Source: Bacteroidota bacterium (GTDB lineage Bacteria > Bacteroidota > Bacteroidia > Palsa-965). From it: a stretch of DNA of 64,000 nt. Below are positions 7,054 through 29,865 of this stretch, piece by piece. The stretch is taken from assembly GCA_006218065.1 (NCBI GenBank), contig VBWE01000011.1:1-64000 (forward strand), given 5' to 3'. How positions within the stretch are numbered: position 1 is the first letter of the stretch; each line of letters opens with the position of its first letter. A program made the position numbers and the translations under genes. The notes under the pieces are model-generated. The model was not told the DNA's origin. It ran no database searches and saw only the letters and a list, made by a program, of their open reading frames with translations.

Positions 7054-7248
7054 ATGAAAACAGGAGTTATTAAATTCTTTAATGCGACCAAAGGATATGG
7101 TTTTATTAAAGACGACAGCACCGGCAGCGAAATATTCGTGCACATTACAGGCCTGATCGATCAACCGGTCAACCAGGGTGATAAAGTGTCATACGATGTC
7201 AGCGAAGGCCGTAAAGGCGCGAATGCAATCAACGTCAAAAAAATATAA
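7054..7248 (+). CDS. Cold-shock domain protein
   Basis: 64 residues forming a single cold-shock domain: MKTGVIKFFNATKGYGFI carries RNP1 (KGYGFI) and EIFVHI is RNP2. It binds single-stranded RNA/DNA and probably acts as an RNA chaperone. Length equals the CspA family. It is monocistronic, with its own promoter and terminator. Whether it is cold-induced or constitutive cannot be read from sequence. Confidence 0.95.
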   Translation: MKTGVIKFFNATKGYGFIKDDSTGSEIFVHITGLIDQPVNQGDKVSYDVSEGRKGANAINVKKI

Positions 7249-7270
7249 TTGACTCACCGCATTCTCCCGA

Positions 7271-7302
7271 ATCCCCTCCGAACCAATCGGGGGGGATTTT
7301 TG
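7271..7302 (+). terminator. Rho-independent terminator after the cold-shock gene
   Basis: ATCCCC-TCCG (7271-7280) pairs with CGGGGGGGAT (7288-7297) around AACCAAT, then a short T-rich tail (TTTTGTTT). It lies 22 bases past the stop codon. Confidence 0.75.
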
Positions 7303-7324
7303 TTTAGATGCTGTTGGAATGCGG

Positions 7325-7332
7325 TATCTTTG
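7325..7332 (+). promoter_or_regulatory. -7 element abutting the RND exporter gene
   Basis: TATCTTTG fits TAnnTTTG and ends 10 bases before the GTG start at 7343. Transcription would begin only a few bases before the start codon, suggesting a leaderless or nearly leaderless mRNA for the 7343-15033 run. Confidence 0.55.
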
Positions 7333-7342
7333 AAACGCTTTT

Positions 7343-9610
7343 GTGAACTTCCTTCGTAAAAATTTCAGGATTATCAGCCTGGTGACTTTGCTCTTTGTTG
7401 GCATCATCACCGTATTCTCTTTCTCTTCGGCCCGTCACCTGAAGTTCGATTATGATTTCGAAAGTTTTTTTCCTTCGGGCGATCCGGAACTGGAGATTTA
7501 CCAGGATTTCAGGAAAACATTTGAGTACGACAACGAGTTTGTTCTCCTGGCTTTCGAAAATAAAAAAGGGATTTTTCAAAAAGATTTCCTGGAAAAAGTA
7601 CAGGGATTTGCGGATTCGCTCCGCCAGGCCCGGAATGTAACGTCGGTTATTGCTCCCACCGATCTCGAATACGCCGTGGTCGGTCCGCTCGGCCCGGTCA
7701 AACTGCCTTACCTCCATATTGATGAACCGGAACAATACGCAACCGATTCTGCGCGGATTTATAAAAGCGAAGAACTGGTCGGATCATTTTTTTCTACCGA
7801 TGCCCGTTCGCTTTGCCTGTACATCAAAACCACCGAGGGCATCGCCAAACTTCCTTCCGATACGCTGCTCGGCTTGATGAACGGGATGATCGAAACGTCC
7901 GGCTTCGACGGGTACCACATGGCGGGAAAAATCAACGGGCAGAAAGTGTACCTCGACAGGCTGCAGAATGAGTTCGTGGTGTTTTTCATCAGTTCTTTTT
8001 TTCTCATCATGCTTTTCCTGCTCATCTCTTTCCGTTCGGCCTGGGGCGTTTGGGTGCCCATCGTCATCGTGCTGCTGGCGATCCTCTGGACGATGGGCCT
8101 GATGCAGGTTACGGGCAAAGCGCTCGACATCATGACCGTGTTGCTTCCCACCATGATGTTCGTGGTAGGCATGAGCGATACGGTGCATATCATGAGCAAA
8201 TACCTGGAAGAAATGCGCGCCGGCCGCGACCGTTTTACCGCGCTGGTGAATACGATCCGCGAAGCGGGTTTTCCGACTTTCCTCACGCTCATCACCACCT
8301 CGCTCGGTTTTCTCACGCTGCTGTATTCCACCATTAAACCGATCCGCGATTTCGGCATTTATACTTCGCTGGGCGTATTCATCGCGTTCATCCTCTCCTA
8401 CTCGCTCATGCCGGTCATCCTGAATTCGATCCGCGAACCGAACCTGCGGCGTGAATCGAAATCTTCGCAGTTCTGGGAAAAGCGCCTGCACCGCCTGCTG
8501 GGCTGGATCTTCCGGAACGCGAAAGCCATCATGATCGCCGTCGTTCTTTTCATCGGCATTTCCATTTTCGGGATCACCCGGATCGAACTGAACAATTACC
8601 TGATCGAAGGACTGACGCGCGGAGACGAACTGCGGGAGAATTTTACTTTTTTCGAAACGTATTATTCCGGCGTACGTCCGTTCGAAATGATCGTCGAGCC
8701 GCGCGATTCCACGCACAGCCTGCTCGGTCCCGAAGAACTGCGCGCGACGGACCGGCTTGAACAGTACCTGCAGACCGAATACGGCGTCGGTTTTATTTTC
8801 TCCCCGGCCACGCTGGTCAAAGGCGCGAACAAAGCACTCAACGGCGGCGACCCGGCATTTTACAAGGTCCCGGAAACGGATTCGGCCATCACCGAAGCGG
8901 TCGATCAGCTCGCGCAATTCAAAAAACGGAAAGAAATAAAAGTCTTCCTGGCGAAAAATGAAAAACGCGGCCGCCTCTCCGGTAAAATGCACGATGTAGG
9001 CAGTAAAGTGATCCGCGAATTAAATGTCGGGCTTGAAAAATTTCTCGCCGGCCCGGATATGAAAGCGCTCAAATGCACGATGACCGGGGGCGCGATGCTG
9101 CTGGATAAAGACAACGTGTACCTGGTGAACAATATGCTGTCCGGCCTTGCGCTTTCCATACTGGTCGTGGCACTGATCATCGCGCTGATCCACCGCTCGC
9201 TGGCCATGACCGTGATCGCGATCATCCCGAACGTGGTGCCGATCCTGCTCATCGGCGGACTGATGGGCTATTTCGGCATTGACCTGAAATCGTCCACCTC
9301 CATCATTTTCTCCATCGCTTTCGGGATTGCCACGGACGATACGATTCATTTTCTTGCCCGGCTGAAAATCGAAATGAACAAGGGGAAATCCGTGATCTAC
9401 GCGGTTAAACGGACTTTTATTTCCACCGGCAAAGCGGTTATCGTGACTTCGCTTATTCTTTCGGCAGGTTTTCTCACGCTGATTTTTTCGGGATTTGAAA
9501 GCACCTTCTATTTCGGCGTACTGGTAAGCATCACGCTGTTCATCGCTGTGCTCACCGACCTGCTGCTTTTCCCGATCCTGGTCGTGTGGCTGCTGAAAAA
9601 GAAAAAGTAA
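7343..9610 (+). CDS. RND/MMPL-superfamily transporter (predicted exporter)
   Basis: 755 residues, GTG start just after a TATCTTTG promoter. Topology is the duplicated RND/MMPL plan: one N-terminal membrane helix (residues ~8-27), a periplasmic domain, five membrane helices, then the same again. The transmembrane carboxylate motifs typical of proton-driven RND pumps appear in both halves (VVGMSDTVHIMSKY; AFGIATDDTIHFLARL). The family includes SSD-containing lipid and hopanoid exporters (HpnN-like), so a lipidic or envelope substrate is plausible but not shown. Only 10 bases separate it from the downstream methyltransferase, so it probably belongs to that transcription unit. Confidence 0.85.
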   Translation: MNFLRKNFRIISLVTLLFVGIITVFSFSSARHLKFDYDFESFFPSGDPELEIYQDFRKTFEYDNEFVLLAFENKKGIFQKDFLEKVQGFADSLRQARNVTSVIAPTDLEYAVVGPLGPVKLPYLHIDEPEQYATDSARIYKSEELVGSFFSTDARSLCLYIKTTEGIAKLPSDTLLGLMNGMIETSGFDGYHMAGKINGQKVYLDRLQNEFVVFFISSFFLIMLFLLISFRSAWGVWVPIVIVLLAILWTMGLMQVTGKALDIMTVLLPTMMFVVGMSDTVHIMSKYLEEMRAGRDRFTALVNTIREAGFPTFLTLITTSLGFLTLLYSTIKPIRDFGIYTSLGVFIAFILSYSLMPVILNSIREPNLRRESKSSQFWEKRLHRLLGWIFRNAKAIMIAVVLFIGISIFGITRIELNNYLIEGLTRGDELRENFTFFETYYSGVRPFEMIVEPRDSTHSLLGPEELRATDRLEQYLQTEYGVGFIFSPATLVKGANKALNGGDPAFYKVPETDSAITEAVDQLAQFKKRKEIKVFLAKNEKRGRLSGKMHDVGSKVIRELNVGLEKFLAGPDMKALKCTMTGGAMLLDKDNVYLVNNMLSGLALSILVVALIIALIHRSLAMTVIAIIPNVVPILLIGGLMGYFGIDLKSSTSIIFSIAFGIATDDTIHFLARLKIEMNKGKSVIYAVKRTFISTGKAVIVTSLILSAGFLTLIFSGFESTFYFGVLVSITLFIAVLTDLLLFPILVVWLLKKKK

Positions 9611-9620
9611 TTTCGTACCC

Positions 9621-10286
9621 GTGCTGCGCTTCCTTGTTTCCACCTTCTGGCGTCCTTACGTAACATGGTACCTGAAAAAACCGCGCAGGTATAACCGGGC
9701 CGGGCTTTCCATGCTCGTGCAGCCGGGCGTTTTTCACCCGGGATTTTTTTTCAGCACGAAATTCCTGCTCACATTCCTGGAAGAAAAAAAAGCGGCACTG
9801 AAAAACAAAACATTCCTCGAACTGGGCGCGGGCAGCGGGCTTCTCGGTCTTTTTGCAGGCAAACACGGCGCAAAAGTCACCGCTTCCGATATCAGTAAAA
9901 CAGCCGTAGAAAATATCGTGGCGAATGCCGCATCGAATCATATCGCGATCACCGCGGTGCATTCCGACCTCTTCGACCGGATCGATCCGCAAACTTTCGA
10001 TTTCATCGTCATCAATCCGCCGTATTATAAAAAGAAACCGGCCACCGAAGCGGAACAGGCCTGGTACTGCGGCGAAGAGCTGGAATACTTCCAGGAATTA
10101 TTTTCACAACTGGGGAATTACATGCACCCCGCGAGTGAAGTGTACATGATCCTTTCCGACGATTGCGACCTGGAAGGAATCCGGAGCATCGCTTCGCAGC
10201 GGCAGTTCGGAATGAAACCGGAAACATCGAAGCGCATCGCCTGGGAAATCAATACCATTTTCCGACTGAAAGAAAAAGAGCCTTAA
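9621..10286 (+). CDS. Class I SAM-dependent methyltransferase (MTS/PrmC-like)
   Basis: 221 residues, GTG start 10 bases after the exporter. Motif I (LELGAGSGLLGLF, ~67-78) binds S-adenosylmethionine, and INPPYYKKKP holds an NPPY motif (132-135) characteristic of enzymes methylating planar nitrogens (PrmC/HemK, rRNA N-methylases). A long aromatic-basic N-terminus (RPYVTWYLKKPRRYNRAG) precedes the fold. The substrate is unknown. Context could mean either a stand-alone housekeeping methylase or part of the radical-SAM cluster. Confidence 0.8.
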   Translation: MLRFLVSTFWRPYVTWYLKKPRRYNRAGLSMLVQPGVFHPGFFFSTKFLLTFLEEKKAALKNKTFLELGAGSGLLGLFAGKHGAKVTASDISKTAVENIVANAASNHIAITAVHSDLFDRIDPQTFDFIVINPPYYKKKPATEAEQAWYCGEELEYFQELFSQLGNYMHPASEVYMILSDDCDLEGIRSIASQRQFGMKPETSKRIAWEINTIFRLKEKEP

Positions 10287-10334
10287 AGTCCAATAGCTTA
10301 AGCCATTCGGAATTTCCCCAAGGACTTTATTCCC

Positions 10335-10342
10335 TAACTTTA
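10335..10342 (+). promoter_or_regulatory. Possible internal promoter before the nucleotidyltransferase gene
   Basis: TAACTTTA (one mismatch to TAnnTTTG) ends 5 bases before the GTG at 10348, in a 61-base gap. If functional, the radical SAM genes could be transcribed separately as a leaderless message. Confidence 0.35.
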
Positions 10343-10347
10343 TCGAG

Positions 10348-11346
10348 GTGAACAGAATATCTACGCTACATCATTCCGATAATCCTGCGCTGAGTACGGC
10401 TCATTCGGCCGTGCTGCGGACAGTTATTTATTTCGATATTTTCAATCACCCGCTGAAATCAACGGAAATACAGGACTACTGCCAGCAATCCAGGCTGCGC
10501 CGGGAAGAAATTACCGGTGCGCTGCACGAACTCTGCCGGGATAATTTTCTCGAAGAGCAGGAAGGTTATTATTTTCTCAGCGGGCGGAATATTCTCGCCG
10601 GCATCCGGAAAGAACGAAACGAACGCGCCGAAGCCTACCTGAAAAAAGCGAAACGCTACAGCAAACTGATCGCTTCATTTCCTTTCGTCCGTTCCGTCGG
10701 TATCAGCGGTTCGCTTTCCAAAGGCACCATGGATCACGACGGCGATATTGATTACTTCATCATCACCGAACCGAAACGCCTCTGGGTATGCCGGACGCTG
10801 CTCGTATTGTTCAAAAAAGTTTTCCTGCTCAATTCGAGAAAATATTTCTGCGTGAATTATTTTATCGACACGCATGAACTTTCCATTCCCGACCTGAACC
10901 TGTTCACCGCCACGGAAATCGTTTTCATCAAGCCGATGTACGAAGGGGCGGTTTTCGAAAAATTCGTCCGGGCGAATACCTGGGTCAATGAATTTTACCC
11001 GAATCGTGCTGAAACAGCCGACCGGCATGACCTTCCTTCCGGCAACCGTTTTTTCAAACGCAGTTTTGAAAAAATAATGCGCGGACGTTTGGGTGAAGCG
11101 CTCGATACTTTTTTCTTCCGGCTCACGCTGAAACGGTGGAAAAGAAAATTCCGGAACGTGGATGAATCGCAGTTCGATCTGAATTTCCGTTCGCGCAGGA
11201 ACGTATCCAAGCACCACCCGCAGGGATTCCAGTTCAAAGTGATGAACCAGCTGGCGGAACGCGTGTTCGAATTCGAACAAAAGCACCGGGTCGTTTTGCA
11301 GAAAAGCGAATGGCGCCTGGATAACCCGGTGGAAATGCAAGGCTGA
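10348..11346 (+). CDS. Winged-helix + nucleotidyltransferase-domain protein
   Basis: 332 residues, GTG start. Residues ~15-85 resemble a winged helix (HPLKSTEIQDYCQQ..REEITGALHELCRDNFLEEQEGYYFL). A polymerase-beta-like nucleotidyltransferase core follows: GISGSLSKG (117-126 region) and D133-x-D135, the GS...DxD metal site, in a DGDIDYFIIT context. The basic C-terminal third (KRWKRKFRNVDESQFDLNFRSRRN) has no recognised motif. It ends 3 bases before a B12-radical SAM gene, suggesting co-translation. Such proteins transfer nucleotides to proteins, RNA or small molecules; the acceptor is not known. Confidence 0.7.
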   Translation: MNRISTLHHSDNPALSTAHSAVLRTVIYFDIFNHPLKSTEIQDYCQQSRLRREEITGALHELCRDNFLEEQEGYYFLSGRNILAGIRKERNERAEAYLKKAKRYSKLIASFPFVRSVGISGSLSKGTMDHDGDIDYFIITEPKRLWVCRTLLVLFKKVFLLNSRKYFCVNYFIDTHELSIPDLNLFTATEIVFIKPMYEGAVFEKFVRANTWVNEFYPNRAETADRHDLPSGNRFFKRSFEKIMRGRLGEALDTFFFRLTLKRWKRKFRNVDESQFDLNFRSRRNVSKHHPQGFQFKVMNQLAERVFEFEQKHRVVLQKSEWRLDNPVEMQG

Positions 11347-11349
11347 ACC

Positions 11350-12813
11350 ATGCGCATCCTCTTCTCCCATTCCTACTTCATGTATTTCGATCCCAAGCAA
11401 TGGGAACTGGAGCAGCCGTACCCGCCGCTGGGAACGATTTTCGCCGCTTCGTTTCTCCGAGAAGCCGGGCATGAAGTCTTTTTGTTCGACACCATGTTCG
11501 AGCAGGACGAGCGGGGATTGCCTGCGCAGCTTGACAAATACCGGCCGGATGTTTTCGTGATTTACGACGACGGGTTCAACTACCTGACCAAAATGTGCCT
11601 CACCAACATGCGCGAAGCCGCTTTCCGCATGCAGGAAATCGCGAAGCAGAAAGGTTGCACGGTCATCGTTTCCAGTTCCGACTCTACCGATCATTTTGAG
11701 AAATACCTCGATCACGGCGCCGATGCGGTGATCAAAGGAGAAGCGGAAATCACGCTGCTGGAAATTATTTCACTCCCGGCGGAGAAAAAAAACGATTTCA
11801 GTTCCATCGCCGGTATCGCATTCCGGCAAAACGGGCAAACGGTACAAACCCCGAAACGCCAGGTGATGAAAGACCTGGATGCGCTGCCGCTTCCCGCCTG
11901 GGATCTCGTGGACATCAAACCGTACCGGGAACGCTGGATGCGCAGCAGCGGCGAACTTGCGCTGAACATGGCCACCACGCGCGGCTGTCCTTATAAATGC
12001 AACTGGTGCGCCAAACCCATTTACGGGAACCGCTACAATTCACGCTCGCCCGAAAATGTAATCCAGGAACTGAAACTGCTCCGCGAAAAATTCCAGGTAA
12101 GCAAAATCTGGTTCAGCGACGATATTTTCGGTTTGAAACCCGGCTGGGTAAACCACTTTGCCGACCTCGTGGAAAAAGAACAGATCAGCTTCCGCTATAA
12201 AATCCAGTCGCGCGCCGACCTGCTCATCCAGGAAAACTACGTAGCCGATCTCGCCCGCTCCGGCTGTGAAACGGTCTGGCTCGGCGCCGAAAGCGGCTCG
12301 CAGCGCATACTCGACGCGATGGACAAAGGCACTACGGTGGAACAGATTTACGAAGCGGTCCGCCTGCTGAAGAAACACGGCATCCGCACGGCGCTTTTCC
12401 TGCAGTTCGGTTACCTCGGCGAAACGATCGAAGACATTCACAAAACCATCGGCATGCTGAACGACCTGCTGCCTGACGATATCGGCGTTTCGGTTTCGTA
12501 CCCGCTGCCGGGAACAAAATTTTACGAGATGGTGAAGCACGACCTGGAGGAAAAATCGAACTGGAGTGATTCCGACGATCTTCACCTGATGTTCCGCAAT
12601 ACCTATTCACCCGATTTTTACAGGCAGCTTCACCGGTTTGTACATAAAAATTACCGGAAGCACCAGGCATACGAAAGCATCGGTATCTTTTTAAAGAAAC
12701 CTTCCCGCATCAGCCGCACGCACCTGCGCCGCGCGCTTTCTACTTTGTATTATATCCCCGCTTCGTTTTTCGAAAAGCGTAAACTCAAGCAGATAGAGCA
12801 TGCCTGGAACTGA
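11350..12813 (+). CDS. B12-binding-domain radical SAM protein (first paralogue)
   Basis: 487 residues. An N-terminal Rossmann-like B12-binding-type domain (residues ~1-140; no DxHxxG lower-ligand motif seen) precedes a radical SAM core with C213-x3-C217-x2-C220 in TRGCPYKCNWC for the 4Fe-4S cluster. Further core motifs: FSDDIFGL, WLGAESGSQRILDAMDKG and FLQFGYLGET. The architecture is that of BchE/HpnJ-type class B enzymes, which do C-methylation, cyclisation or rearrangement. It shares domain order and motifs with the protein at 13642-15033. It overlaps the next gene by 14 bases. The chemistry is not predictable from sequence. Confidence 0.85.
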   Translation: MRILFSHSYFMYFDPKQWELEQPYPPLGTIFAASFLREAGHEVFLFDTMFEQDERGLPAQLDKYRPDVFVIYDDGFNYLTKMCLTNMREAAFRMQEIAKQKGCTVIVSSSDSTDHFEKYLDHGADAVIKGEAEITLLEIISLPAEKKNDFSSIAGIAFRQNGQTVQTPKRQVMKDLDALPLPAWDLVDIKPYRERWMRSSGELALNMATTRGCPYKCNWCAKPIYGNRYNSRSPENVIQELKLLREKFQVSKIWFSDDIFGLKPGWVNHFADLVEKEQISFRYKIQSRADLLIQENYVADLARSGCETVWLGAESGSQRILDAMDKGTTVEQIYEAVRLLKKHGIRTALFLQFGYLGETIEDIHKTIGMLNDLLPDDIGVSVSYPLPGTKFYEMVKHDLEEKSNWSDSDDLHLMFRNTYSPDFYRQLHRFVHKNYRKHQAYESIGIFLKKPSRISRTHLRRALSTLYYIPASFFEKRKLKQIEHAWN

Positions 12814-13645
12814 AGCGGCTTTCGATTTTCACGCGGCTTCCTACGATTCCACCTTCACCCATTCGGAAACGGGAAAACGGCAGCGCAAACGCGTGCACGA
12901 TTATCTTGAAAAAAAACTGGATGCTGCACTTTATAAACGTGTACTCGAACTGAACTGCGGCACCGGCGAAGATGCGATCTGGCTGGCCCGCCGCGGGCAC
13001 GAGGTAACGGCAACCGATCTTTCACAAAAAATGATCGACCTGGCTGAACGCAAATCAGCCGAGGCAAAAACGACGATCCGCTTTCAGAAAACCAGCTTCG
13101 GTGAAATTGCATCCCGGTTTGCTCCCGGTTCTTTCGATTGTATTTTTTCCAATTTCGGCGGACTGAACTGCATCGATTATGCCGCCGTGAAAAAACTCGC
13201 AGACGATTCGGCGATCCTGCTTCGTCCCGGCGGAAGGTTTATTGCCGTGATCATGGGCAAAAACTGCAGTTGGGAAAAATTCTATTTCCGGCTCAAAGGA
13301 GACCGCGAGAATCGTCTGCGCAGGAAAAAAAACGGCGGCGCAGAAGTCATGATCGGCGAAGAGAAATTCACTACCTGGTATTATTCCCCGGCTGAAATCC
13401 GGGAGGCTTTTTCAAAACAGTTCGCGTTTGCAGATAACATCCCCGTCGGCTGGGCCCTGCCGCCTTCGTACCTCGAACCCCGGTTTAAAAACAAAAAGAA
13501 CCTGCTTGCATTCCTGCACGGGATAGAAAATATGTGCTCCCCGTTTTCCTTTGCCGTGAACCGTGCAGATCATTTCCTCATCGATTTCGGGCGAACCGGT
13601 GCGGGGGATGCGCGCGAATCGGGTAACTTCGGCATACCGCAATGA
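12800..13645 (+). CDS. Class I SAM-dependent methyltransferase between the radical SAM paralogues
   Basis: 281 residues; starts within the end of the upstream gene (14-base overlap) and ends overlapping the next by 4 bases (ATGA), so translational coupling is likely. The N-terminus FDFHAASYDSTFTHSETGKRQR and motif I VLELNCGTGEDAIWLARRG (~48-66) are typical of UbiE/Methyltransf_11-type small-molecule methylases; ATDLSQKMIDLA is motif II. Unlike the 9621 enzyme it lacks NPPY, so O-, C- or S-methylation of a small molecule is more likely. Its place between two radical SAM genes suggests it acts in the same pathway. Confidence 0.8.
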   Translation: MPGTEAAFDFHAASYDSTFTHSETGKRQRKRVHDYLEKKLDAALYKRVLELNCGTGEDAIWLARRGHEVTATDLSQKMIDLAERKSAEAKTTIRFQKTSFGEIASRFAPGSFDCIFSNFGGLNCIDYAAVKKLADDSAILLRPGGRFIAVIMGKNCSWEKFYFRLKGDRENRLRRKKNGGAEVMIGEEKFTTWYYSPAEIREAFSKQFAFADNIPVGWALPPSYLEPRFKNKKNLLAFLHGIENMCSPFSFAVNRADHFLIDFGRTGAGDARESGNFGIPQ

Positions 13646-15033
13646 ATATCCTGCTGACACACGGTTACTTCCTCGAAGAAGATGAGAAAGAAAAACTCAT
13701 CATGAAACCGTATGTTCCGCTGGGCATCCTGTACATTTCCGCCTGGCTGAGCAGGAACGGTTTTGAAAATGAAGTTTTCGACAGTACGTTTTCTTCTTTC
13801 GAAAAATTAAAAACAAAACTCACGGAAAAACGGCCGGAAATACTCGGCATCTACGTCAACCTGATGACGAAGCTGAACGTATTGCGCATCATGGAATTCA
13901 TCCGGAACACCCCGGCCTTGTCGCATACGCGGATCGTACTCGGCGGACCGGAAGTCAAAAACCATGTGGCGAATTTCATGAACCACGGCGCGGATATCAT
14001 CGTGCTCGGCGAAGGAGAAGAAAGCATGGCGGAAATCGCAGCGGCTTTCAGTAAATCGGCGGATCCTGATCTTTCCGGCATCGCAGGCATCGCCTGGAAA
14101 AACAAATCCGGCGAAACCATCATGAATGAACCGCGGCAGTTGCTGAAAGAAGTCGATGCGCTTCCTTTTCCGGATCGCAGTAAAATCGATTTGCACCTGT
14201 ACCTCGACGCCTGGAAAAAACATCATGGACAATCCACCATTTCCGTGAGCACGATGCGCGGATGTCCCTACACCTGTAAATGGTGCAGCCGCGCGGTTTA
14301 CGGATTGAGTTACCGCCGGCGCAGCCCGGAATTAGTGGCGGATGAAATGGAACATATCCGTGAAAAATACAAGCCGGACATGATCTGGTTCGTGGACGAT
14401 GTTTTTACGATCAGTCACAAATGGCTGCGTGAGTTCGCGGATGAAATTGAAAAGCGTAAACTGGAACTTCCGTACGAAATCATCACGCGCGCCGACCGGA
14501 TGAACGAAGAAGTGATCGACCTGCTGGTGAAAAGCGGCTGCCGCCGGGTGTGGATTGGTGCGGAAAGCGGTTCGCAGAAAATCATCGATGCCATGGACCG
14601 GCGCGTGGATGTGAAACAGGTGAGCGACATGATCCGGCTTTCGCAGCAGAAAGGAATACAGGCCGGCACCTTTATCATGCTCGGTTACCCGGGCGAAACG
14701 CAAAAAGATATCCGCGAAACTATCCGGCACTTGGTCAGTTCCGATCCCGACCTGTACACGATCACCGTGGCTTACCCGATCAAAGGAACGCCGTTGTACG
14801 AAGAAGTGGAAAGCCGTTTTATCCAACAGCCCGACTGGGCAAAATCCACCGACCGCGATATCGATTTCGAACGCAGTTTTCCGCGCAAATATTACGACTA
14901 TGCCGTGCGCTGGGTTTATAACGAAGTCGCTTTCAGCAAAAGCCGCAAAAACGGGCACTGGATGAAAATGCCTATCCACAAACTAAAATCGCTGGCTGCG
15001 CGGGGCGGAATGTTTCTGAGTAAGATGATGTAA
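13642..15033 (+). CDS. B12-binding-domain radical SAM protein (second paralogue)
   Basis: 463 residues, start overlapping the preceding stop (ATGA). A B12-binding-type N-terminal domain (IVLGGPEVKNHVANFMNHGA; LGEGEESMAEI) leads to a radical SAM core with C208-x3-C212-x2-C215 (MRGCPYTCKWC), then WFVDDVFTISHKW, RVWIGAESGSQKIIDAMDRR and FIMLGYPGET. It parallels the 11350 protein in order and spacing of motifs but is clearly diverged, which suggests two successive or related reactions. It closes the gene run and is followed by a long inverted repeat and a convergent gene. Confidence 0.85.
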   Translation: MNILLTHGYFLEEDEKEKLIMKPYVPLGILYISAWLSRNGFENEVFDSTFSSFEKLKTKLTEKRPEILGIYVNLMTKLNVLRIMEFIRNTPALSHTRIVLGGPEVKNHVANFMNHGADIIVLGEGEESMAEIAAAFSKSADPDLSGIAGIAWKNKSGETIMNEPRQLLKEVDALPFPDRSKIDLHLYLDAWKKHHGQSTISVSTMRGCPYTCKWCSRAVYGLSYRRRSPELVADEMEHIREKYKPDMIWFVDDVFTISHKWLREFADEIEKRKLELPYEIITRADRMNEEVIDLLVKSGCRRVWIGAESGSQKIIDAMDRRVDVKQVSDMIRLSQQKGIQAGTFIMLGYPGETQKDIRETIRHLVSSDPDLYTITVAYPIKGTPLYEEVESRFIQQPDWAKSTDRDIDFERSFPRKYYDYAVRWVYNEVAFSKSRKNGHWMKMPIHKLKSLAARGGMFLSKMM

Positions 15034-15055
15034 AAACGAATTCCTTCCGGGCATT

Positions 15056-15166
15056 AAACGCACAACGCCAAATGCTCAATTACCAATGTTCATTGGACAG
15101 ATGCACCTGCCTGCCATAGCTGTGCTGCGGACAGGTTGATAATTGAGCGTTTGGCATTGTGCGTTT
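15056..15166. repeat. Intergenic inverted-repeat element (27-bp arms)
   Basis: Arms 15056-15082 and 15140-15166 are inverted repeats matching at 25 of 27 positions. The two mismatches are reciprocal: the words GCATTTGGCGTT and GCGTTTGGCATT exchange one base pair. The 57-base centre contains its own short hairpin (CCAATGttCATTGG, 15083-15096). It lies between convergent genes, so it may also terminate transcription. Confidence 0.8.
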
Positions 15167-15253
15167 ATTCCTTGTTTCATGGAATACGCACTAAAAGAAA
15201 CTCCCATCCCACGTTAATGGAACAGGAGTTCGCATGCTCTGCCTGAGCTGTAT

Positions 15254-26938: not shown

Positions 26939-28441
26939 TTATTTTTTTCGCTTTTTTTCTTCCCCGATCACATACTGCGCATCGAGATACAGCAGCGAAT
27001 CAATAGAAATGCCCATTTGCCTGCTTTTCTCGATTTCCAGCGGGTACCAGCCCGGATCGCGGACAATGCGTTCCATCACCGTACGTATTTCCGGTGCCGC
27101 CCGTTTATAAATGGATTTCGGATCACTCATCCGGCTGCCGGCTTTCAGTGCGACAAGCGCGTCAGCATAAACCAGGGAATCGACTTCGATGCCACTGACG
27201 CCTGACTTCTGTTTCAGCAGCCCGATCCAGCCGGGTGATGCGTAAATCTGGTCCATCATTTTTTTCACAACCGGCGACGATTTTTTCAGCGTCTGCTCTT
27301 TGCCCAGCACAACCAGGTCGTAAGCCTTATCGATGAATCCCCAGGAAAAATCCGGCAGGTTACCGTCGGTGCAGAGGATCATGATCACATCGTGACTGAA
27401 AATTTCGCCGCGGTAATCCACTTCCGCCGAATCGAGCAGGCCGTCGCCGCGGCAGTGCGGGTAATACTGCTGGTTGTAATAGAGGTAATCGATCCGTTCA
27501 AAACTGCCGCCTTCGATATCATAAAGCGGGAAAGTCCAGAAATAGCTGTCGGCAATAGTGAGCAGTTTCGGGCGCTTTTTGCCCACGGAATCTTCGAAAC
27601 TGAAATCGGCATACGCCATCGCCGGCGCTTGAGGTCCGAAAAGAAGGTTCATCCCGTTCCCGATATCGTAATCCACATCGTCCAGCGTATTGCTGAAATG
27701 AATATTGCGGAGTACGAGTCCCGGCACACGCGTTCCGCGAAGCTCCCCGATCTTTCCCGTGATGCTGTCGGCTGCAAGCAGCGCCCCGTAACGGCTCCAG
27801 TGAATGCCGCATTTCGGGAAAAGCGGGTATTCCGAAACCGGTTTCATTTCCCTGAACCAGCTGTGCGCATCGATGTGATTCAACTGCAGTTCTTTTGAAA
27901 GACGCGCATACACGTCGCTGTTTTTCGGCCCGACAACCTGCTGGTATTTTTCGGGCAGGTACTCGTGGAAAAACGAACCTTTTCCGGGGGCAAAAACAAG
28001 CAGCAGCGTAATATCACGTTCCGCCAGTTTATCCTGCACGGCTTTTGCTTTCTCCAGCTGCGCGCGTATTTTTTTCTCGCCGATAAAATCCACACCGCTG
28101 TATGCTTCCATGTAATTGGTCTCGTACAGGTAACCTTCCTTCCCGATCTTGACATTGTTGGCATACGCCCGGGCCAGCAGCCAGTACCCGGACTGGTTGT
28201 GGATGCGGACAGCCATGCTCCGGAAACCGAAATTTTCGTTATGCCAGTCGTCGAAGGCATGCTGGTACGAACCGCTCCACCAGCCGGTATCGGTAAACTG
28301 TGGTTTTACTTTCTGCTGAATATCGCCGCTGAGCGGTTTCAACTGCGCGAACGGAACATATTGCTGCAAAAGCGGGAGCAGCATAAAGCCGAGGATAATT
28401 CCCAGCAGCAGCCTTTTGATATGTTCCTGTTTTGGCTTCAT
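26939..28441 (-). CDS. AlgJ/AlgX-like SGNH-family protein (O-acetylation partner)
   Basis: 500 residues with one N-terminal membrane helix (~9-28) and a periplasmic SGNH-like domain. Putative catalytic elements: H214 (FPKCGIHWSRYG) and S299 (LTIADSYFWTF). The AlgJ/X motif DTHW appears here as GIHW, so the aspartate two residues before the histidine is a glycine. The start codon shares one base with the stop of the upstream MBOAT gene (TGATG), indicating translational coupling. The pair probably transfers acyl groups (usually acetyl) to an exported polysaccharide or other envelope acceptor. Confidence 0.8.
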   Translation of the reverse strand: MKPKQEHIKRLLLGIILGFMLLPLLQQYVPFAQLKPLSGDIQQKVKPQFTDTGWWSGSYQHAFDDWHNENFGFRSMAVRIHNQSGYWLLARAYANNVKIGKEGYLYETNYMEAYSGVDFIGEKKIRAQLEKAKAVQDKLAERDITLLLVFAPGKGSFFHEYLPEKYQQVVGPKNSDVYARLSKELQLNHIDAHSWFREMKPVSEYPLFPKCGIHWSRYGALLAADSITGKIGELRGTRVPGLVLRNIHFSNTLDDVDYDIGNGMNLLFGPQAPAMAYADFSFEDSVGKKRPKLLTIADSYFWTFPLYDIEGGSFERIDYLYYNQQYYPHCRGDGLLDSAEVDYRGEIFSHDVIMILCTDGNLPDFSWGFIDKAYDLVVLGKEQTLKKSSPVVKKMMDQIYASPGWIGLLKQKSGVSGIEVDSLVYADALVALKAGSRMSDPKSIYKRAAPEIRTVMERIVRDPGWYPLEIEKSRQMGISIDSLLYLDAQYVIGEEKKRKK

Positions 28442-29865
28442 CAGAACCGGAAATAGATGAACGGGTTAAAACCGGCTGCCGTGATATAGCTCAGCGAAAG
28501 CGTGAAGAGCAGGAGCGAAATGGCCGTAAGCGCGATATGCCCGGAAATATTCGGTGTACCGAAATAAATTTTCTGCTGGAAAAGATCGCCGCGTTTGAAG
28601 AAGCAGAAGAACCCGAAGAAAATCGCCAGTGCGAATGCCGGCCAGTATTCCGGCTCCGGCAGAACGAATGCTACGGCGGTATTCTGCCCGAGCATGGCTT
28701 TGTAAAAAGAATCCGCCCCGGCAACGGTATCCGCACGGAACATCACCCAGCCGACCACGACGATGAAGAAAGTAAACAGTACGCGCGTGATTTTCCCCGT
28801 CCGTTTAAGCAGCCGGTCGAGCAGAACCCGGTCGAGAATAAGGAACAATCCATGCCAGGCTCCCCAAAGTACAAACGTCCACGCCGCACCGTGCCAGAGA
28901 CCGGAGGCGAGAAATACGAGATAGAGATTCAGGTACATCCTGCCTGTTCCGGCGCGGTTTCCGCCCAGCGGGATGTAGAGATAATTCCGCATCCAGTTGC
29001 CCAGCGTGATATGCCAGCGTCGCCAGAATTCGGTGATGCTTTGCGAGATATACGGATTGTTGAAGTTTTCCGGGAAACGGAAGCCCAGCATTTTCCCCAG
29101 GCCGATGGCCATATCGCTGTAGCCAGAAAAGTCGAAATAAATCTGGAAAGTATAAGCCAGCGCGCCCATCCAGGCTGTAGCCGCATGCAACTGCCCGGGA
29201 TCGGAATCGAAAACCGTGTCGGCATAAGCGGCGACGTGGTTGGCGATGATCACTTTTTTCGCAAGGCCGATCCCGAAACGGTAAAATCCCGATAACCGGT
29301 TGTCCAGCGTATCGTTGGCGCTGCGATCGGTGATCTGGTCGGCAATTTCATGATAACGGATGATCGGGCCGGCGATCAGTTTCGGGAAAAGAATAATGTA
29401 CAGCAGGTAATTGAAAAAATTGTCGAGCGGTTTGTGCACGCCACGGTAAACGTCAACGACGTATGTAACCGTCTCGAACGTATAAAATGAAATCCCGATA
29501 GGAAGAATCACGTTCAGCGCGCCGATTTTGCCGATTCCCCACGATTCGAAAAGCACGTTGATGTTGTCGATGAAAAAATTACAGTACTTGAAATAGAACA
29601 GCAGTCCCAGGTTCATGCAGAGCGAAAGTACGAGCAGGGCCTTTTTTTCGACAGGATCCTCCCTGTTGTGCATCGCACGCACGAGAATAAAATCGAGGAA
29701 CGTGGTGCCGAGTATGACGAGAATAAATTTCGGTGCGCCCCAGCTGTAAAAGAAAATGCTGCCGAACAGGAGTACGTAATTCCTGTACTGCCTGCCGCTC
29801 AGGTAATACAGAACCAGGAGCAACGGCAGGAAAAAAGCGAGAAAAACCGAACTGCTGAAAATCAT
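28441..29865 (-). CDS. MBOAT O-acyltransferase (AlgI-like)
   Basis: 474 residues, strongly hydrophobic, about 11-12 membrane helices. MBOAT signatures: FDFSGYSDMAIGLGKMLGF, SITEFWRRWHITLGNWMRNYLYIPLGGNR, and the invariant His H325 in ASGLWHGAAWTFVLWG. It carries acyl groups from cytoplasmic acyl-CoA across the inner membrane for transfer by the AlgJ-like protein encoded next. The acceptor is unknown; no polysaccharide synthase is adjacent. Confidence 0.92.
   Translation of the reverse strand: MIFSSSVFLAFFLPLLLVLYYLSGRQYRNYVLLFGSIFFYSWGAPKFILVILGTTFLDFILVRAMHNREDPVEKKALLVLSLCMNLGLLFYFKYCNFFIDNINVLFESWGIGKIGALNVILPIGISFYTFETVTYVVDVYRGVHKPLDNFFNYLLYIILFPKLIAGPIIRYHEIADQITDRSANDTLDNRLSGFYRFGIGLAKKVIIANHVAAYADTVFDSDPGQLHAATAWMGALAYTFQIYFDFSGYSDMAIGLGKMLGFRFPENFNNPYISQSITEFWRRWHITLGNWMRNYLYIPLGGNRAGTGRMYLNLYLVFLASGLWHGAAWTFVLWGAWHGLFLILDRVLLDRLLKRTGKITRVLFTFFIVVVGWVMFRADTVAGADSFYKAMLGQNTAVAFVLPEPEYWPAFALAIFFGFFCFFKRGDLFQQKIYFGTPNISGHIALTAISLLLFTLSLSYITAAGFNPFIYFRF

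Follow-up and report, generated by a model that had tools for sequence, protein, structure and literature searches.

The window analysed here, 64,000 nucleotides in length, comprises positions 1 to 64,000 of the forward strand of contig VBWE01000011.1 from Bacteroidota bacterium GCA_006218065.1. Between positions 9621 and 15033 it contains five plus-strand open reading frames in a row, and these are accompanied by an exporter gene, a promoter-like sequence and a palindrome:

7300..7332, plus strand: promoter-like sequence of the Bacteroidota type, TTG...TATCTTTG (pattern match only)
7343..9610, plus strand: RND/MMPL exporter gene (Pfam MMPL), outside the conserved system
9621..10286, plus strand: MT1 (221 aa), HemK/PrmC-like class I methyltransferase with an NPPY motif, accessory
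10348..11346, plus strand: NT (332 aa), winged-helix-like and Pol-beta-type nucleotidyltransferase of an unclassified family, core
11350..12813, plus strand: rS1 (487 aa), B12-domain radical SAM protein, the defining core enzyme
12800..13645, plus strand: MT2 (281 aa), class I methyltransferase, core, translationally coupled to rS1
13642..15033, plus strand: rS2 (463 aa), B12-binding radical SAM paralogue, accessory
15055..15167, no strand: imperfect palindrome downstream of rS2 and dispersed repeat (49 matches in the own genome)

The reading frame coordinates agree in every junction with the arrangement described in the first-pass annotation: the exporter gene ends 10 bases upstream of MT1, MT1 and NT are separated by 61 bases and NT and rS1 by 3 bases, rS1 and MT2 overlap by 14 bases and MT2 and rS2 by 4 bases. 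The promoter-like sequence lies immediately 5´ of the RND gene and is a possible promoter of the operon. The palindrome has arms of roughly 27 bases and belongs to a REP/MITE-like element repeated genome-wide; it marks the end of the operon and is not part of the system. An Rfam search of the window matched no riboswitch or other RNA element.

Two further observations concern the flanks. A small cold-shock-domain-like reading frame (MKTGVIKFFNATKGYGFIKDD...) was spotted by eye on the plus strand at about 7055-7250, between the genes for acetyl-CoA synthetase and RND. On the minus strand (26939-29865) an AlgX-like SGNH gene (Pfam) is followed by an MBOAT-like gene that shares 50% identity with a Pfam MBOAT protein, a combination that forms an O-acetylation pair for secreted polysaccharides. 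Such a pair also adjoins the gene for a third radical SAM protein, rS3, in G006 (L021:4398-7188), and since this was the one other locus in the set that matched, the AlgX/MBOAT genes were not assigned to the system.

Both proposed methyltransferases carry the expected Pfam domains, MTS in MT1 (64 bits) and Methyltransf_25 in MT2. MT1 scored below the cut-offs of the NCBIfam PRK14968/PrmC models, and its NPPY motif, which is typical of N-methylation on planar nitrogens, is conserved.

The first-pass annotation described rS1 and rS2 as diverged B12-radical SAM paralogues, and this is supported by the Pfam domain order, a B12-binding domain followed by a radical SAM domain, and by the CxxxCxxC sites, which are invariant in alignments of relatives (C213/C217/C220 in rS1, C208/C212/C215 in rS2). 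For rS2 both domains were detected, B12-binding with 46 bits (above the cut-off) and Radical_SAM with 82 bits; rS1 reached 80 bits for Radical_SAM, and its B12-binding domain stayed below the cut-off (23.3 vs 32.1 bits). The two proteins are 35% identical to each other, and identities within the rS1 family and within the rS2 family are 53-68%. At the position where rS1 reads SSSDSTDH, rS2 has kept GGPEV, and the alignment of rS1 contains an invariant DDGFNYLTKMCLTNMR stretch. The rS1 model matched the folds of MgmA, TsrM, OxsB and AprD4 over its full length, with MgmA as the closest solved relative. Enzymes of this fold include the protein glutamine methylase MgmA (PMC11796369) as well as GenK, GenD1 and AprD4, which act on aminoglycoside sugars (PMC5461906). 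rS1, rS2 and rS3 are predicted to use SAM together with an iron-sulphur cluster and probably cobalamin, which is less certain for rS1 with its low-scoring B12 domain.

The curated models were missed by a wide margin. BchE (TIGR02026, cut-off 481.35 bits), the best NCBIfam model for rS1, gave 160.5 bits for rS1 and 159.2 for rS2, the PhpK P-methyltransferase (TIGR04479, cut-off 600) gave 174.1 for rS2 and 123.2 for rS1, and HpnJ (TIGR03471, cut-off 577.6), the best curated match of rS3, gave 128.2 for rS1, 130.1 for rS2 and 129.9 for an rS3 relative. The best scores (BchE 160, PhpK 174, HpnJ 130) reach between one quarter and one third of what the cut-offs demand, and the AprD4 model gave 80 of 500 bits. 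All radical SAM proteins in the set, like NT, lie outside the curated families searched, judged by these profile scores.

Three groups of known systems come closest to these proteins. The class B radical SAM enzymes BchE, PhpK and MgmA share the domain order, the CxxxCxxC motif and the best curated scores; however, these scores are below the cut-offs, and no porphyrin, phosphinate or MCR partner genes were identified. With AprD4 and GenK/GenD1, which deoxygenate or C-methylate aminosugars, the set shares the B12-radical SAM fold, and AprD4 is among the best fold matches of rS1, but the score to the AprD4 model is low, an AprD3-like reductase was not identified, and organism and context are different. 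In the third system the glycosyltransferase HpnI, the deacetylase HpnK and HpnJ, a protein of the B12-radical SAM kind, act serially on glucosamine, and HpnJ makes the cyclitol ether from BHT glucosamine (PMC12583986). The likeness lies in HpnJ being the best curated match of rS3 and in the deacetylase and glycosyltransferase genes found near rS1 in relatives. The match is nevertheless 128-130 of 577.6 bits, the own genome has no squalene-hopene cyclase match, and neither NT nor the methyltransferases of the cluster have a counterpart in the HpnI-HpnK-HpnJ pathway.

NT had no match in Pfam, NCBIfam or PADLOC. Its AlphaFold model (pLDDT 86) shows a winged-helix-like N-terminal part followed by a Pol-beta nucleotidyltransferase fold, and the motif GS-x10-D-x-D (G121, S122, D133, D135), which within this fold agrees with the GS-x(9-12)-DxD pattern of the Pol-beta superfamily, is invariant in an alignment of 14 divergent relatives. 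The proposed assignment as a winged-helix nucleotidyltransferase is supported, and because of the invariant motif NT is probably catalytically active. A Foldseek search with the model found MntA (prob 0.99), HalB, AadA and ANT4 (ANT(4´)), none with an E-value below 0.001. NT shares the Pol-beta fold and the GS...DxD motif with MNT antitoxins and aminoglycoside nucleotidyltransferases, but it differs from them in its extra winged-helix-like N-terminus, its helical C-terminus and the lack of a sequence-level match. Unlike MNT antitoxins, NT is obligately paired with rS1; no HEPN partner was identified, and the adjacent genes encode a methyltransferase and a radical SAM protein.

To describe the distribution of the cluster, we used an even sample of 248 genomes of the phylum and a second set of 59 related genomes. 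rS1 was found in 19 of the 248 genomes (about 8%), and all 19 carry NT on the same contig, mostly adjacent. The co-occurrence is highly significant (Fisher p about 1e-25); the counts assume independent genomes, though kin exist among them, and the even sampling and the co-location in 19/19 safeguard the conclusion. rS3 is present in 12 and rS2 in three of the 248 genomes, and every one of these also carries rS1. The related genomes gave the same picture, with NT in 14 and rS1 in 13, all 13 having NT as well. In the even sample NT occurs without rS1 in three genomes, as a fragment with a stop codon in G073 and as part of fusion proteins in G165 and G176. In G073 (L149, contig C3) broken remnants of MT2 and rS1 at 1421-2580 lie close to the NT fragment (C3:3719-3964); these pieces represent a core that has decayed.

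When 84,980 species genomes were scanned, 547 or more relatives of rS1 emerged, and the 80 best loci were retained. Their sources include Mucilaginibacter, Niastella, Puia, Dyadobacter, Aureispira, Ignavibacteria and Kapabacteria. A contig scan of genomes with a single NT sequence retrieved nothing, and the same approach with the rS1 alignment worked. Neighbours were counted in the 86 loci that are flanked by 3.5 kb or more of sequence on each side; among all loci no more than three are duplicates. Near rS1 we found MT2 in 84 loci (within 8 kb), NT in 81, rS3 in 60, MT1 in 23, rS2 in 18 and RND in three, and the rS1-MT2 junction measures at most 5 bases in 67 of the 75 pairs encoded on one strand. 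These counts define a core of NT, rS1 and MT2 with MT1, rS2 and rS3 as optional members. NT-rS1-MT2 is an obligate module, and rS2 and rS3 are add-ons found only together with it. Beyond what the first-pass annotation had noticed, rS3 belongs to the set and rS2 is dispensable (in 3 of the 19 rS1 genomes vs 12 of 19 for rS3). Relatives have further add-ons, namely an amidohydrolase, additional methyltransferases, a SPASM radical SAM protein, flippases and GT4 glycosyltransferases.

The complete order MT1-NT-rS1-MT2-rS2 is repeated in four loci of relatives (L015, L016, L018, L021) and, interrupted or partly truncated, in two more (L020, L022). The neighbourhood search thereby upholds the earlier claim of a conserved, uncharacterised biosynthetic cluster, and in the open-access full text searched we found no description of a combination of NT, radical SAM protein and methyltransferase. 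The window genome encodes its rS3 on another contig (C77:46878-48371; L118:16961-18475), with 66% identity to a Mucilaginibacter copy, so the window displays just part of its genome's set; in the 40 kb taken from that contig no recognised partner families were found. Plasmid records contained distant radical SAM relatives only (at most 28% identity, one annotated as BchE with 28% to rS1), and NT was absent from them.

The RND exporter had been regarded as a part of the system, and this is not supported. It is near the core in just 3 of 86 loci, and close homologues with 59-65% identity are found within the same bacterial family independently of rS1; two genomes without rS1, G002 and G011, have equally close ones. 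Among the 59 related genomes, 23 contain a homologue. It adjoins the core of the window and that of G009; in G004 and G008 the distance is about 15-20 kb, and the gene is located near rS3. We regard RND as a general gene outside the conserved system, and with the promoter-like sequence directly before it, it is probably co-transcribed with the operon here. Since the exporter is not specific to the system, a lipid product is not favoured. Export of hopanoids or other lipids by an HpnN-type protein was rejected: RND is unlinked to the system, and the own genome has no match to the squalene-hopene cyclase PF13249, which is matched in the control genome of Bacillus subtilis. From the earlier proposal of a pathway that builds and exports a lipidic or cofactor-like molecule, the conserved biosynthetic cluster remains, whereas the lipid product is not favoured and the argument for export is weakened by the non-specific RND.

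The neighbourhoods of 80 named and 18 evenly sampled loci were inspected for further partners. In most named relatives the core forms part of an extensive locus that also encodes glycosyltransferases of the GT4, GT2 and DUF1972 types, a Wzx-type flippase, a Wzy/O-antigen ligase, an initiating sugar transferase, a polysaccharide deacetylase, a GNAT protein and an ABC exporter, together with the amidohydrolase, the SPASM radical SAM protein and the further methyltransferases. The evenly sampled deep-branch loci often have a short form consisting of NT, rS1, MT2, MT5, GT4 and a Wzx-like flippase. Of the 18 sampled rS1 loci 13 contained glycan-type genes, vs 3 of 20 control stretches taken from these genomes or related ones (p=5e-4), and two or more such genes occurred in 8/18 vs 0/20 (p=9e-4); as the glycosyltransferase profiles were built from cluster neighbours this enrichment is partly circular, though the families are generic. 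Five of the 18 sampled loci are without nearby glycan-type genes, and in the compact loci of the own family and class just two of seven have them. Neither the 64-kb window nor the 40 kb taken from the rS3 contig contained glycosyltransferases of the recurrent families, and the Wzx/Wzy-type flippase and polymerase seen beside the core in many relatives are absent from the window.

NT itself is connected with glycan genes in genomes that lack rS1. In G165 and G176 a GT4 glycosyltransferase is joined to an NT-like domain of the winged-helix/nucleotidyltransferase type (proteins of 656-668 aa, domain at residues about 370-590; L146:7419-9425 and L147:6654-8624), and in G048 (L027) NT directly adjoins initiating sugar transferase, Wzy-like and glycosyltransferase genes. 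The neighbours across the phylum and the fusion point to a glycan and not a lipid. Because of the neighbourhoods in relatives, the GT4-NT fusions and the glycan locus of G048, a glycan is the best-supported target.

We therefore propose, with moderate confidence, that the cluster represents one form of a pathway by which Bacteroidota tailor a glycan, either lipid-linked or on the cell surface. Radical chemistry at C-H or C-O bonds, methylation and nucleotidyl transfer by NT may well belong to the same pathway, with general glycan enzymes assembling and flipping the product. From the gene partnership, the catalytic motifs, the folds, the glycan neighbours in relatives and the fusion, all of which are observed, we infer the substrate, the function of NT and the sequence of reactions as follows. 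rS1, together with rS2 and rS3 where present, would modify a sugar unit at unactivated C-H or C-O positions, possibly by C-methylation, deoxygenation or ring rearrangement in analogy to GenK, AprD4 and HpnJ on aminosugars. MT1 and MT2 would add N- or O-methyl groups. NT would transfer a nucleotide onto the same sugar-type substrate or its carrier, which could be an activating step, a protecting step or a means of controlling the glycosyltransferase; the obligate association of NT and rS1 suggests that these two enzymes act in successive steps. Glycosyltransferases and a flippase would then build and export the product, and in the window genome these parts would be encoded elsewhere, as rS3 is. 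A more specific version, in which the Pol-beta enzyme NT nucleotidylates a sugar or lipid-linked sugar before the B12-radical SAM enzyme rS1 modifies an unactivated carbon, yielding a new monosaccharide of the surface glycan, is speculative and we consider it doubtful.

It is conceivable, though we hold it only tentatively, that the product is a free small molecule or glycolipid, natural-product-like and possibly a signal or antibiotic, which is incidentally glycosylated and secreted by the RND or an ABC exporter. The expanded loci, with up to three B12-radical SAM proteins, one SPASM radical SAM protein, four methyltransferases, an amidohydrolase and a GNAT protein, would suit such a pathway; an ABC exporter is near rS1 in 20 of the 86 loci, and RND lies directly upstream in the window. 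However, RND is not specific to the system, PF13249 had no match in the own genome, and a polymer or lipid-linked glycan would better explain why Wzx, Wzy and initiating transferase genes are such frequent neighbours. An unlikely variant is that NT is a regulator of glycan loci, a winged-helix DNA-binding or sensor protein, and that the remaining genes tailor the glycan. The helix-turn-helix-like N-terminus of the model, the position of NT on the strand opposite to the core (48 of 81 loci) and its presence in glycan loci without rS1 would agree with this, but the catalytic motif is invariant and the fusion to a glycosyltransferase suggests an enzyme or carrier function.

Modification of a protein or RNA, with the radical SAM proteins and methyltransferases acting on the macromolecule and NT adenylylating a protein, is quite improbable. 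The closest solved relative of rS1, MgmA, does modify a protein (PMC11796369), MT1 resembles PrmC/HemK2, and the fold matches of NT include protein-AMPylating MNT enzymes; on the other hand, the conserved partners are all enzymes, the distribution is patchy, glycan genes are nearby, and the gaps of 81 loci contain no recurrent short peptide reading frame, the best family occurring in three. RiPP biosynthesis was rejected, as no small reading frame family is common to more than three of these 81 loci, and so was a defence or toxin-antitoxin function, for which PADLOC yielded weak generic matches to the methyltransferase and radical SAM proteins and none to NT.

The module is present in about 8% of evenly sampled Bacteroidota genomes (19/248). 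Its nucleotidyltransferase family and its radical SAM families, three or more in number, are new in the sense that they fall outside every curated library searched. If the tailoring of a glycan is indeed its function, surface sugars modified by radical chemistry would form a class of their own and offer an entry to new C-H chemistry on sugars, and the module would bear on how soil and aquatic Bacteroidota appear to phages and to their neighbours.
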